Below are positions 47,464 to 50,648 of a stretch of 64,000 bases of DNA, piece after piece; positions within the stretch are counted from its first letter, which is position 1, and every line of letters starts with the position of its first letter. Source of the stretch: Cellvibrio sp. KY-YJ-3 (GTDB lineage Bacteria; Pseudomonadota; Gammaproteobacteria; Pseudomonadales; Cellvibrionaceae). Under the pieces are notes generated by a model. It did no database searches. It worked only from the letters and a program-made list of their open reading frames with translations, and was not told the DNA's origin. The stretch is taken from contig NZ_CP031727.1 of NCBI RefSeq assembly GCF_008806955.1, positions 1,998,001 through 2,062,000 of the forward strand, written 5' to 3'. A program made the translations under genes and the position numbers.

Positions 47464-47640
47464 CTAACTATACAACCTTCTTGAAGCTGCTTGTAAATCG
47501 CCGCGACTCATCTCGTATTTAAGCAGATTAAGCAATTCGCTGACTTGAGGGGTGACTTGGGGGGTAGGTAAATGGCTAGATGATTCAATCGTGTTCAGAA
47601 TCATCTGTGGCATAAACTCAATAAACGGCGCAGAGTCAAC
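47464..47640 (-). pseudogene. C-terminal remnant of a Fic-family protein
   Basis: A 58-codon frame with no start codon of its own translates to a segment containing VDSAPFIEFMPQMILNTIE and PTPQVTPQVSELLNLLKYEM, then SRGDLQAA. The DS-x-PFIEFM and TPQVTPQV-x-x-LL pattern is what I know from the C-terminal region of Fic/DOC AMPylase-type proteins. The catalytic HPFxxGNG region is absent. Its 5' end joins the truncated HigA reading frame in another phase at about 47640, so it is a deletion scar. Confidence 0.65.
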
Positions 47641-47884
47641 TCTTGCGAATCATCGGCTCCAGATTCTTTACAGTTAAACCTTTGCGTTCCATTTCGAATT
47701 TAATTGCTTCGACTGGATCATGTAGATCCATGGGAAAGTATTTTGCTTCGTAGGCTTCTATCAGCGTAACCAGCACTCCCAGCTTTTCGCCTTCGGGCGA
47801 ATCAAGCTCTGCCATCATTAGGCTCTCAATTTCTTTTAACGCCGCGCGATAATCGGCATCAGTTTTTATCGGTTTGATGTTCAT
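47636..47884 (-). pseudogene. Truncated HigA-like antitoxin
   Basis: 82 residues. MNIKPIKTDADYRAALKEIE, LVTLIEAYEAKYFPMD and the HTH beginning AIKFEMERKGLTVKNLEPMI match HigA antitoxins, but the protein ends in IRKS where a full HigA continues with the recognition helix and ~35 more residues. The DNA-binding domain is therefore cut in half. The upstream side is also abnormal: integrase-derived sequence on the other strand begins at its start codon, and no higB toxin gene is next to it. Probably a non-functional remnant. Confidence 0.65.
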
Positions 47885-48459
47885 CGTTTTGGTGAGATTG
47901 ATTACAGCAATCCGCTGGATGGTGTGAAAATGATTAAGCTGGACGAAAGGGAGCTGTCTTGGCTAACTGTAGAGTAAATAAAAATGCTGCTTGAAACAAT
48001 GGATAAATTTTCCTTGAATCCGCATGTTAAATTGATAACCAAAATCAGTCTTGCTACAGGGGCACGATGGGGTGAGGTAGAGGGGTGACTCTTGATAAAC
48101 TACAAGATGGAAAATTGACCTTCACAAAAACCAAGAGTAGAAAAAATCGCTCTATCCCTGTGTCGCCTGAGCTATTTGCCGAAGTAAGCCAGCACCTTAA
48201 AAAGTATGGCTGTTTTTCTAATTCTATTAATGCTTTTGGTAGGGCGCTTAGGGTTGCAAAAATTGAATTGCCCAAAGGACAGTCAGCGCATGTGCTTCGT
48301 CATTCCTTTGCTAGCCACTTCGTGATGAATGGCGGTGATATTCTATCGCTTCAGAAAATATTGGGGCATTCAACTATAAACATGACAATGAGATATGCTC
48401 ATTTATCGTCGGATCATTTGGCTTCCGCATTGGTTAAAAATCCAATTTCTTTTATTTGA
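47882..48459 (+). pseudogene. Tyrosine integrase remnant with one nonsense codon and one frameshift
   Basis: From 47882 the frame reads RFGEIDYSNPLDGVKMIKLD, ERELSWLTVE, then TAA (47975-47977) where a Gln codon is expected, IKMLLETMDKFSLNPHVKLI, TKISLATGARWGEVE, then a one-base deletion near 48083-48085, and continues as VTLDKLQDGKLTFTKTKSRK to the catalytic block HVLRHSFASHF, LGHSTINMTMRYAHL. The R-H-x-x-R-H-Y residues of phage/island integrases are present apart from the disruptions. The N-terminal domain is missing. Most similar in pattern to integrases of P2-like phages and genomic islands. Confidence 0.8.
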
Positions 48460-49399
48460 TCAAGCTCCATAATGATCTAGCTTTATCTTTATATCTGCTT
48501 TCAATAACAGAAAGTGAATTGATTCTGCCCAGTGTTCTATCAATTAATTTTTCGGGAGGGCTTAGCTTTCCGCTAAATCCTTTGAGAAGTTCAATGTCCT
48601 GATATAAATTTTTGTGTTGTTCGTTTTTTGCGAGTGCTGTCCCATTTCTTATAACTACCCCTGTAATTACTTTTACGCTTCCCTTTGGATAAAGAATTGA
48701 CTTTTTAGGGTGCATAATGTGTCCGTGTCGAGTAATTATTTTTTTAACTGTATTGACAAAAATTTTATTCACATTGCTTCCAGTAAAAGTAATGTCATCC
48801 ACATAGAGCGTCATTGTGACATTATGTTGAATGGATAAGTTTTGTAGCTCCCTAAACATCTTCTCATTCGCCCAGAAAGACATAGGCATACTTATTCTGC
48901 TTCCTGTCGGGATGTGACCATTGCATGTGCAAAGTTTGGCAAGAAGGTCGGCAACGTCAGGTTCGCATTTCATGACGCCATAGAAAAAAGAAAACACTTT
49001 TTCAATTGGTGTTGAAGGGAAAAATGATTTTATATCTGTTGTGAAAGTGTTTTCGTTTGCTAAATGAATCTTTGCGTTCGTGACATGCGATCGTCTTTTT
49101 GTTCCTGAATGTATGAAATCAGGAGATTCTATTCTGCAAAGAAGGCTAGCAATTCTGGATTGGTAAATGTCCAGGTTTTTATTTGGTTTTTCAATTGTTC
49201 TGGGTTTAAGTGGATTTTTGTTATCTATAAAAATAGAGTAATCCCCGATTGCCTTTGTTAAGTCACTGATGGTAACAGAGGCTTGGGATAAGATTGAGAG
49301 AAGTTTTTTCTTTGATGTTATTTTGTATAACGACGAATCTTTTAGGGCGTATGATTTTCCTTTTCTAATTATTTTAAGCTTGCTGTGTTTTATTTTCAT
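48452..49399 (-). CDS. Retron-type reverse transcriptase
   Basis: 315 residues, the usual retron RT size. Motifs: NAKIH at 108-112 (the NAxxH element of retron region X), FTTDIKSFFPST at 119-130 (first catalytic Asp122), HIPTGSRISMPMSFW, MTLYVDDITFTG with YVDD at 199-202, HPKKSIL, and VITG at 244-247, matching the retron VTG element. No maturase, Cas1 or other fused domain. It makes msDNA by copying part of a structured RNA primed from an internal 2'-OH. The start overlaps the HTH gene by 26 bases, so the two are coupled. Its 3' end overlaps the integrase remnant by 8 bases, and the gene looks intact. Confidence 0.9.
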   Translation of the reverse strand: MKIKHSKLKIIRKGKSYALKDSSLYKITSKKKLLSILSQASVTISDLTKAIGDYSIFIDNKNPLKPRTIEKPNKNLDIYQSRIASLLCRIESPDFIHSGTKRRSHVTNAKIHLANENTFTTDIKSFFPSTPIEKVFSFFYGVMKCEPDVADLLAKLCTCNGHIPTGSRISMPMSFWANEKMFRELQNLSIQHNVTMTLYVDDITFTGSNVNKIFVNTVKKIITRHGHIMHPKKSILYPKGSVKVITGVVIRNGTALAKNEQHKNLYQDIELLKGFSGKLSPPEKLIDRTLGRINSLSVIESRYKDKARSLWSLIK

Positions 49400-49685
49400 C
49401 TTTGTCGGATAGCCATTCCATTACGGTCAAAATTTTATCGGTAACAGCTAGTCTAAATTTTTTAGCTGTCTTTCCTTCTTTATCGATATTTTCAGAAAAG
49501 AATACCAATGATGAAACCGGTATTTCAAAAATTTTTGAATATCTTTCGAGTAGATCAAAAGATACTGGTTTTTTTCCTGATTCAATTTCAGATAGATAAG
49601 ATTTTGATATATCCAACTGTTCAGCAAGTTCAGCTTGCTTGACTTTATGAAATTGTCTTATTACTTTCAGCGCTTTATTAATCAT
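49374..49685 (-). CDS. XRE-family HTH protein of the retron operon
   Basis: 103 residues from ATG 49685 (GAGG seven bases upstream); the frame to 49715 has no ribosome site. The Cro/CI-type helix-turn-helix reads KVKQAELAEQLDISKSYLSE, then IESGKKPVSFDLLERYSKIF. A ~40-residue C-terminal helix follows (TAKKFRLAVTDKILTVMEWL). It could repress the operon or serve as the retron accessory protein; several retron classes carry HTH proteins, and from memory the class called type VI does. It overlaps the RT gene. Confidence 0.85.
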   Translation of the reverse strand: MINKALKVIRQFHKVKQAELAEQLDISKSYLSEIESGKKPVSFDLLERYSKIFEIPVSSLVFFSENIDKEGKTAKKFRLAVTDKILTVMEWLSDKDENKTQQA

Positions 49686-49689
49686 TTTT

Positions 49690-49727
49690 AACCTCAAAAA
49701 AAGCAAGGGGAACACCTAGAGTGTTCA
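49690..49727 (-). promoter_or_regulatory. Palindrome and T-run between the small gene and the HTH gene
   Basis: The minus strand has GAACAC-TCTAG-GTGTTC (6-bp arms, 49710-49726 region) followed six bases later by seven T residues, then the HTH gene's ribosome site. It could be a weak terminator/attenuator that lowers HTH-RT expression, or an operator for the HTH protein itself. Confidence 0.45.
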
Positions 49728-49877
49728 CTCCTCGTCGGAAAAAAATTGGATTACCCTCCATACCAACTTACCAAAGAGTATTGCCCACTTGATAAGTTTC
49801 CACTTTAGGTTCTTTCTCTTTTTCTTCTCGGAGCTATCTCCGGGTGCCTGTTGATCTTGATCAGAAGTACTATTCAT
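49725..49877 (-). CDS. 50-residue basic amphipathic protein of the retron operon
   Basis: A short gene with AAAGG eight bases before its ATG. Residues 1-16 are polar and acidic-neutral (MNSTSDQDQQAPGDSS), then EKKKRKN, then a basic amphipathic or membrane-active helix (LKWKLIKWAILFGKLVWRVI) and the end QFFSDEE. The ribosome site lies in the right arm of the long hairpin of the candidate retron RNA, and the ATG lies in its candidate a2 repeat. It has no recognisable family. Its composition is that of small membrane-acting toxins, so it is a candidate effector; that is inference. Confidence 0.65.
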   Translation of the reverse strand: MNSTSDQDQQAPGDSSEKKKRKNLKWKLIKWAILFGKLVWRVIQFFSDEE

Positions 49878-50028
49878 ACGCGTTACCTTTAATTACTACT
49901 CTGCGGAATTGCCTAGTAGCTTCGCCTAATTAAAGGTGGAGAGTGATCAACATAAACCCCTTGTTTTCCACCCGTAGGGATTCGCCCCTACGGGTGTGTA
50001 CTCGCTGCCATGCTGGATAAGCGTATAA
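49874..50028 (-). ncRNA. Candidate retron msr-msd RNA
   Basis: Read on the minus strand: a candidate a1 repeat TTATACGC (50021-50028); AGC triplets (CCAGC, GCAGCGAG) that could hold the branching G; a perfect 11-bp hairpin CACCCGTAGGG/CCCTACGGGTG with a 6-base loop (49969-49996); and a long hairpin (49885-49937) whose outer arms ACCTTTAATTA/TAATTAAAGGT continue through a 7-base bulge into CTACT/AGTAG. A candidate a2, GCGTATGA (49874-49881), pairs with a1 over 8 bases with one G-U pair. The order a1, msr hairpin, msd hairpin, a2 is that of retron RNAs. The exact ends are estimates. Confidence 0.65.
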
Positions 50029-50031
50029 GGC

Positions 50032-50133
50032 CTAACGCTGCTTGGGCGGGTAATTGGTAGAGAGCAAGCTCTCCGCGAGTTCCAATACATCAAACTCAGG
50101 CGATGGCGAAATTTTCTCTCCTTTACTGACCAT
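50032..50133 (-). CDS. Possible 33-residue leader peptide or gene remnant
   Basis: ATG 50133 opens MVSKGEKISPSPEFDVLELA and ends in PPKQR, four bases before the candidate retron RNA. The frame is open back to 50274 but that part runs through the tmRNA terminator. A TTGACA-17 bp-TACCTT promoter places transcription start close to the ATG, so any translation would be leaderless. It may be a gene fragment left by integration at ssrA. No family recognised. Confidence 0.3.
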   Translation of the reverse strand: MVSKGEKISPSPEFDVLELAESLLSTNYPPKQR

Positions 50134-50139
50134 GAAACT

Positions 50140-50168
50140 AAGGTAGATTAGGGGGAGTTTTCTGTCAA
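50140..50168 (-). promoter_or_regulatory. Candidate promoter of the retron unit
   Basis: On the minus strand a perfect -35 TTGACA (50163-50168) is followed after 17 bases by TACCTT (50140-50145). It lies after the tmRNA terminator and about 110 bases upstream of the candidate retron RNA, with no terminator in between, so it could drive the whole RNA-small protein-HTH-RT unit. Confidence 0.5.
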
Positions 50169-50253
50169 TGAAAAGTTCGCTATTTGCGAACAAATCTGAT
50201 GCCGCATGTGGGCAGAATGTAGGCACAAAAAAACTTTTGAAAGAGCATTCAAT

Positions 50254-50286
50254 AAAAAACCCCAACATAATCAATATGTTGGGGTT
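50254..50286 (-). terminator. tmRNA terminator
   Basis: On the minus strand AACCCCAACATA pairs with TATGTTGGGGTT around a 5-base loop and runs into a T-rich tract, starting just past the encoded CCA end of ssrA. Confidence 0.88.
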
Positions 50287-50293
50287 CGTTATG

Positions 50294-50648
50294 TGGTGGA
50301 GCCGGGGGGATTTGAACCCCCGTCCGCCAGCACTCCATCCTCGGCTCTACATGTTTAGGTCCGTTTATTAATTTAACGCTTATCAGCCCAACAGGCAGGA
50401 CGAAAAGCGCGATCCTGTAGAGTTTTAGCAGCGCCGCACCAGGCTTACTTTGCTGCGATCCAGTTCTGTATGACGGGCTCTAACGCGGTACTGGCACCTT
50501 GTTACAGACCGTTAGCAGCGATTAAGCTGCTAAAGCGTAAGAATCGTCGTTTGCGACTATTCAAGTACAGCTTTGGATTAACGTGATTGGCTGTCATCAC
50601 GACATGCACCTTGGGCTTTGTTACCAGCGTCGAATCCAAATCGACCCC
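50294..50648 (-). ncRNA. ssrA: tmRNA (transfer-messenger RNA)
   Basis: The 5' end GGGGTCGATTTGGATTCGACG and the 3' end GGGGGTTCAAATCCCCCCGG-CTCCACCA (encoded CCA) form the tRNA-like domain; 5' GGGGTCG pairs with 3' CGGCTCC with wobbles. The resume region TAGTCGCAAACGACGA leads into the tag frame at 50522-50554, which encodes ANDDSYALAA and a stop. About 355 bases, as expected. tmRNA with SmpB rescues stalled ribosomes and tags the nascent protein for proteolysis. Its 3' end is a common integration site; accessory DNA begins directly downstream. Confidence 0.97.

Follow-up and report, generated by a model that had tools for sequence, protein, structure and literature searches.

A type VI retron of Cellvibrio sp. 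KY-YJ-3 whose msd loop and Shine-Dalgarno hairpin share a short tag: a candidate base-pairing control of a small putative toxin gene

The 64,000 nucleotide stretch of the Cellvibrio sp. KY-YJ-3 genome analysed here (NZ_CP031727.1, positions 1,998,001 to 2,062,000 of the forward strand; hereafter the window) carries on its minus strand a retron comprising a structured RNA, a small open reading frame (ORF) of 50 codons, a helix-turn-helix (HTH) gene and a reverse transcriptase (RT) gene (Table 1). As far as can be judged from its sequence, the locus is an ordinary, complete type VI retron, and its regulatory plan is the novel part. On balance, and with modest confidence, we favour a model in which the unit acts like a type I toxin-antitoxin (TA) system, with the complex of RT, msr RNA and multicopy single-stranded DNA (msDNA) blocking translation of a putative toxin, the 50-residue peptide, by base pairing. 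Because the loop of the msd hairpin and the hairpin that buries the Shine-Dalgarno (SD) sequence of the small ORF carry the same tag, either the copied DNA or an RNA partner would seem to keep the small gene off.

Results

The msd loop, the hairpin bulge and the msr element

The tag in the window is GGCGAA. Relatives also have an msd hairpin with a loop specific to each locus, and by eye the bulge of the SD hairpin repeats the msd loop of its own locus in nearly all of them, the tags elsewhere being GGTGAC, GAGGA, ACGACA, AAGGC, GATGG, CTGGT, CGAGA, GTGG and others. The 44 loci kept for comparison form 31 clusters (under 60% RT identity), and 22 of these clusters entered the bulge-loop test, which used automatically detected hairpins only, filtered by hairpin score and distance. 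Identity of at least 5 nt between bulge and loop is seen in 21/22 clusters as against 70 of 462 mismatched pairs, and the shared nucleotides total 126, compared with 76.7 (standard deviation 5.2, maximum 100) in 20,000 re-pairings. On an RT tree of 39 loci, with tag classes set by hand, the class changes at least 10 times for the bulge and at least 11 times for the loop, and the two fall in the same class in 38 of the 39. The same script applied to 11 further loci, none of whose RTs exceeds 53% identity to the first set, finds at least 5 shared nt in 9/11 as against 9/110 re-pairings, and none of 20,000 permutations reaches the observed total. One of these loci, L170, was missed by the script; by eye its bulge and msd have GGCGTGA in common.

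A third site, in the msr, tends to be the reverse complement of the other two. Over the 22 clusters this element is complementary to the bulge with a z score of 5.7 and to the loop with one of 4.0. The HTH operator described below was considered as the origin of the loop motif and set aside, the operator being constant while the loop varies.

The hairpin that buries the Shine-Dalgarno sequence

The score of the SD hairpin in the window is reached by 0 of 100 shuffles. Across the 31 clusters the mean score is 33.3, as against 20.4 for shuffled leaders and 19.4 for the leaders of the HTH genes, and in 23/31 at most 5 of 100 shuffles match the observed score. When 11 loci are aligned with plain MAFFT, compensatory changes are seen at 9 of the 10 predicted pairs. 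We also built a covariance model from the same 11 loci and ran it on 28 sources; beyond the window, 9/27 are matched at the expected place with E ≤10 (8 at E ≤1), and there are 3 misplaced matches, each with E >1. The hit L035 shares a cluster with the training locus L034. Both the SD hairpin and the P3 stem described next are present in the minimum-energy fold predicted for the transcript of the window locus. With the full transcript, taken from its assumed start, the SD has a mean predicted probability of being unpaired of 0.00; this rises to 0.83 when the 5' arm of the hairpin is left out. A conserved AATTC apical loop was tried as a further feature and rejected (11/31, as against 7/31 and 2/31 in controls).

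P3 is a predicted stem between the stretch just before a2 and codons of the small ORF, and the match between these two regions has a z score of 10.6 over 22 clusters and 10.2 over 31. Its ORF arm begins at nt 19-39 in 18/22 clusters, the exceptions being L033, L034, L119 and L072; the stem reaches 12 bp in L116 and 11 bp in L127. In seven E. coli and Klebsiella-phage sequences the ORF arm GAACAGCAGGC is invariant. Since the leader arm sits at the expected start of reverse transcription, copying should remove it.

The retron RNA

The fold of the 293 nt RNA region of the window beats those of 196 out of 200 shuffled sequences (z -2.46), and its msr and msd elements are conserved across relatives, as judged by eye and by the loop test. 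The initial annotation, made from the window sequence without database searches, had predicted a structured RNA with a1/a2-like repeats. If the 11-nt inverted repeat 49927-49937/49885-49895 was meant, it is more likely the SD-burying hairpin of the 50-residue ORF; the likelier a1/a2 is the 6 bp pair listed in Table 1, in which the G at 50116 is perhaps the priming nucleotide. The proposed check with retron RNA covariance models came out negative, no Rfam retron family matching the window RNA at its cut-off. A conserved RNA does lie upstream in homologous loci, and in the profile comparison below the RT groups with retrons and not with the RTs of group II introns, diversity-generating retroelements or abortive-infection (Abi) systems.

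Assignment to type VI

The RT matches the PADLOC profile RT_VI with 311 bits, as against 134 for the runner-up among the matches listed; all profiles among these (25 of 39) bear retron names. In agreement with the NAxxH, YVDD and VTG-like elements first noted, the protein has NAKIH at 108-112, YVDD, and ITG at 245-247 replacing VTG. In Pfam RVT_1 alone is prominent, its 29.4 bits lying just below the cut-off of 29.6, and a phmmer search of PDB sequences gives the Ec86 retron RT as the nearest solved protein (8.4e-16). Two NCBIfam models match below their cut-offs, retron_St85 at 95.7 bits (cut-off 235) and Drt3a at just 19.6 bits (cut-off 200). The class suggested in the initial annotation is thus borne out by RT_VI and by the HTH_VI match of the neighbouring regulator, and the XRE-family HTH gene, 50-residue gene and structured RNA were all found upstream on the same strand. 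RT_VI is also the top profile for L129 (Shewanella phage MuM16-1), L130 (a P2-like phage) and the genome-contig loci L034 and L036; PADLOC was run on these four and the window, 5 of the 44 kept loci, and the others were classed by our own RT profile and an HTH match.

PMC8541194 describes the MuM16-1 relative as a potential type VI retron-like retroelement, cites the classification of Mestre et al. 2020, and gives the type genes for a DNA-binding and a small auxiliary protein. By the type VI profiles and this account, the locus itself belongs to a kind already described.

The small ORF

The 50-residue peptide has no match among Pfam, PADLOC or NCBIfam profiles and matches PHROG 15287, a phage family of unknown function, at 3.3e-6. 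A small auxiliary ORF was kept in 44 of 57 loci having both RT and HTH genes, and L069 and L123 also carry one. Across the 44 kept loci it ends 26-86 nt before the HTH gene and encodes 28-61 residues that include a hydrophobic 18-residue window and carry a net charge between +1 and +11; this composition is in part the product of choice, because we selected the ORFs by eye from candidates. Among the seven E. coli and Klebsiella-phage relatives the non-synonymous rate (pN) is below the synonymous rate (pS) in 17 of the 21 pairs, those with at least 8 synonymous differences, which argues that the small ORF is a real gene; one close pair is reversed, with 0 synonymous and 7 non-synonymous differences. 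The composition of the peptide fits a short hydrophobic type I toxin, the toxicity itself being putative.

A more distant group of loci with RT and HTH genes (L004 and L037-L041) has an ORF of about 80 codons with a hydrophobic C-terminus in the position of the small ORF, and its leaders likewise fold into hairpins.

Operator and promoter

Upstream of the promoter lies the palindrome TTCGCAAATAGCGAA, to which the HTH protein may bind and through which it is likely to act as a transcriptional repressor. In 19/31 clusters the 450 nt that precede the small ORF contain an exact TTCGC-N4..6-GCGAA, as against 0/31 of control stretches. The palindrome scores as terminator-like too. The automatic promoter scan did not report the probable promoter, so this call, read from the sequence, rests on its position beside the operator.

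Surroundings of the locus

The placement beside ssrA on the minus strand proposed in the initial annotation holds, with all claimed parts present and intact. The HTH and RT genes overlap by 26 nt, and the host genome has a single match to the window RT at E 0.001. A terminator-like hairpin between the small ORF and the HTH gene could uncouple expression of the peptide from that of HTH and RT; there are 4 terminator-like sites in 2 kb, this one included, where 1.7 (standard deviation 1.2) are expected.

Eight ssrA loci of the same genus were compared with the window, and on the 3' side of ssrA every one of them loses similarity to it at 50281-50294; one of the eight (L140) has an ssrA identical to that of the window. 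Such a break is what a variable site next to the end of ssrA would give. In three genomes of the genus (G004, G015 and G010) the 3' end of ssrA recurs in additional copies of 23-25 nt, as would be expected if ssrA serves as an integration site. An attachment-site copy of the ssrA end was sought at 40-50 kb of the window and discarded, the matches being of 9-13 nt only. The surroundings had been described as integrase and TA debris. The integrase part stands, a remnant matching PF00589 over positions 112-170 of 172; for the TA part, an 82-residue ORF (47636-47884, minus strand) presumably akin to a HigA-type antitoxin, Pfam gives no match at E 0.01.

Table 1. Features of the retron locus and its ssrA neighbour (window coordinates)
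Feature	Position	Strand	Remarks
ssrA	50294-50648	-	upstream of retron unit, same strand
Whole unit	50190-48452	-	in transcription order: operator palindrome, probable promoter, retron RNA, SD hairpin, 50-residue ORF, XRE HTH, RT
Palindrome TTCGCAAATAGCGAA, probable HTH operator	50176-50190	-	upstream of -35 box
Probable promoter, TTGACA, 17 nt, TACCTT	50140-50168	-	read from sequence
Retron RNA	about 50130-49938	-
Probable a1, GGAGAG	50116-50121	-	complementary to CTCTCC 49938-49943
msr element TTCGCC	50105-50110	-	reverse complement of msd loop and SD-hairpin bulge
Two msr stem-loops	50077-50097, 50060-50074	-	seen by eye in window and alignment
msd hairpin, 11 bp, perfect inverted repeat	49969-49996	-	loop GGCGAA 49981-49986
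P3 5' arm TGTTGATC	49945-49952	-	predicted to pair with 49849-49856; beside presumed reverse-transcription start
Probable a2, CTCTCC	49938-49943	-	complementary to GGAGAG 50116-50121
SD hairpin	49885-49937	-	outer stem 49927-49937/49885-49895, then inner hairpin
Hairpin bulge, 7 nt, GGCGAAG	49920-49926	-	5' side of SD hairpin
SD AAAGG of 50-residue ORF	49886-49890	-	within hairpin 3' arm
50-residue ORF, proposed toxin	49725-49877	-	K/R-rich middle, hydrophobic C-terminal half
P3 3' arm GATCAACA	49849-49856	-	in small ORF, nt 22-29
Terminator-like hairpin	49710-49726	-	overlaps small ORF stop, precedes HTH gene
XRE-family HTH regulator, 103 aa	49374-49685	-	HTH_VI 5.5e-38 (PADLOC); Pfam HTH_3 8.4e-11
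Retron RT, 315 aa	48452-49399	-	RT_VI 1.5e-93 (PADLOC)

Relatives and sampling

A scan of genome contigs with the window RT alone finds no relative, and one with an alignment of five RTs finds 53 loci. A scan of 369 genomes with HTH_VI is noisy, matching 183 of them and 12 of 14 controls too; its nine best non-self loci were followed (L033-L041). Of 96 RT loci, 28 are without an HTH gene within reach and 11 are copies, which leaves the 57 with RT and HTH. The 44 kept are those with an identified small ORF, and the loci excluded from the 57 are L002 (decayed HTH), L076 (contig end), L113, L117 and L128 (near copies), L069 and L123 (ORF missed at first) and the distant six described above. The further set of 11 consists of L069 and L123, both matched by eye before the scripted test, and 9 of 10 newly fetched loci, L174 having been left out for want of an HTH gene; within it L164 and L166 share 65%, and L171 and L172 66%, RT identity. 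Six weaker loci (L175-L180) stand outside the analysed sets.

Units with RT and HTH genes occur in Mu-like phages, P2-like phages (Peduoviridae) and a Pasteurella phage (L129, L130, L131, L132, L133 and L167), and a P2-type relative is matched in 99 of 5426 complete E. coli genomes. Immediately after the RT gene of two plasmid loci, L165 (Celeribacter indicus) and L164 (Acinetobacter pittii), come a TIR-domain gene and a PBECR2 nuclease-fold gene, which are possible added effectors.

Discussion

We propose the following sequence of events, in which the pairing sites are read from the DNA and we infer every dynamic step. The nascent transcript would be translationally silent owing to P3 and the SD hairpin. 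The RT would then prime on the msr and copy the msd, whereupon the P3 leader arm would become part of an RNA-DNA hybrid and be removed, leaving the mRNA one lock short. The RT-msr-msDNA complex would hold the SD hairpin shut by binding in trans to its bulge, for which it could use the loop of the msDNA (TTCGCC in DNA form), the element of the msr (UUCGCC in RNA form) or the two together. If a phage were to damage, remove or titrate either the msDNA or the RT, the hairpin would be able to open and the peptide, whose site of action is probably the membrane, would be made and stop the cell. Transcription would be restricted by the HTH protein at its palindromic operator. A role of the window retron in phage defence, suggested in the initial annotation, is likewise putative.

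A more specific form of this model makes the type VI antitoxin a reverse-transcribed antisense DNA, the msDNA loop kissing the bulge while copying breaks P3, so that reverse transcription both arms and restrains the toxin mRNA; this we put forward tentatively, with rather less than even confidence. The msr element could instead act alone in trans, the msDNA loop resembling the bulge because the msr pairs with the msd loop before copying, in which case the retron would be an RNA antitoxin with an exposure that depends on reverse transcription. We think this unlikely, if by no means far-fetched. The complementarity of the msr element to both bulge and loop speaks for it, as does L116, where the bulge fits the msr element over 5 nt and the loop over 3 nt. 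However, the identity of bulge and loop is the stronger signal (z 9.6), although the msr window is wider and hence noisier, and in L132 it is the loop (7 nt) that fits the bulge better than the msr element does (4 nt). For these comparisons of single loci 10 of the 44 were dropped for wrong automatic hairpins, and 2 were set by hand.

Two further explanations dispense with a toxin or with base pairing. The peptide may be a non-toxic accessory, and the ribonucleoprotein may bind its own leader to set the level of the operon, as would suit the shared orientation of the small ORF, HTH and RT genes, which may lie on one transcript, and an operator that hints at self-control on a second level. Against this, a short peptide that is cationic and hydrophobic and whose SD is closed looks like a type I toxin (on timP, PMC11228461), and the terminator-like hairpin separates the peptide gene from HTH and RT; such housekeeping feedback strikes us as improbable. 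More improbable still is that loop and bulge are binding sites for a protein (region Y of the RT, or the HTH protein) that co-change with its specificity. This would explain why each locus has one motif common to both sites, but changes in the msr element tend to follow those of the two sites as their reverse complement, which favours base pairing, and the TTCGC operator is unchanged where the loop differs, as in L033 and L034.

Several observations count against the model we prefer. The SD is predicted to be closed even without P3 (unpaired probability 0.01), so that the fold does not call for P3 as an additional lock, and an SD that is closed by itself may have less need of a trans partner. 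Detection of the hairpin failed or was weak in 8/31 clusters. The tags are short (5-8 nt), and with wide unannotated windows the signals fall to z 3.0 for bulge and loop, 1.7 for leader and msr and -0.3 for msd and msr. The exact-match test for the 6 bp a1/a2 pair is weak (z 2.3 over 22 clusters). L116 breaks the rule, its bulge GCGA and loop ACGAC having 3 nt in common, and L171 is a genuine miss, also with 3 nt in common. Finally, L002 has an intact RT, a truncated remnant of an HTH gene and no identified small ORF.

The gene content of the window locus does not differ from that of type VI retrons, which are alike in RT_VI, HTH_VI, small auxiliary ORF and upstream RNA. The SD hairpin, the match of bulge, loop and msr, and P3 appear to be additions to the type VI picture, not met in the texts searched. 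These were open-licence PMC titles and the starts of abstracts, a part of the literature, among which no account of the type VI mode of action was found. Preprints on retron DNA and toxin translation may exist and bear on priority.

With Ec86 (Eco1) and the protein-effector retrons the locus has in common the RT family, with its NAxxH and VTG-like motifs, and the msr/msd plan. In effector retrons the RT-ncRNA-DNA complex reportedly sequesters a toxic effector (PMC12548924), whereas the window unit shows no enzyme effector and its control appears to target mRNA. Type I TA systems such as timPR are a further parallel, being alike in the short toxin-like peptide, the buried ribosome-binding site and control by base pairing; for type I systems PMC11228461 describes a two-step control by a silent mRNA, processing and an antisense antitoxin. 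In place of a separate small RNA gene, however, the retron has as candidate antisense its own msDNA or msr, which stem from one and the same transcript; a separate antisense RNA was not specifically searched for. DRT2 and other defence RTs are also alike, as far as the partial accounts of them go, in combining an RT with a neighbouring structured RNA, whereas the window RT falls in retron type VI, with no DRT profile among the matches listed (25 of 39).

Retrons reportedly hold a protein effector, and type VI shows none; the shared tag offers a direct mechanism with simple predictions. The regulatory plan seems to extend throughout type VI, and its mode of action is directly testable. If the msDNA is the active strand, type VI retrons would provide a natural antisense DNA that controls translation.

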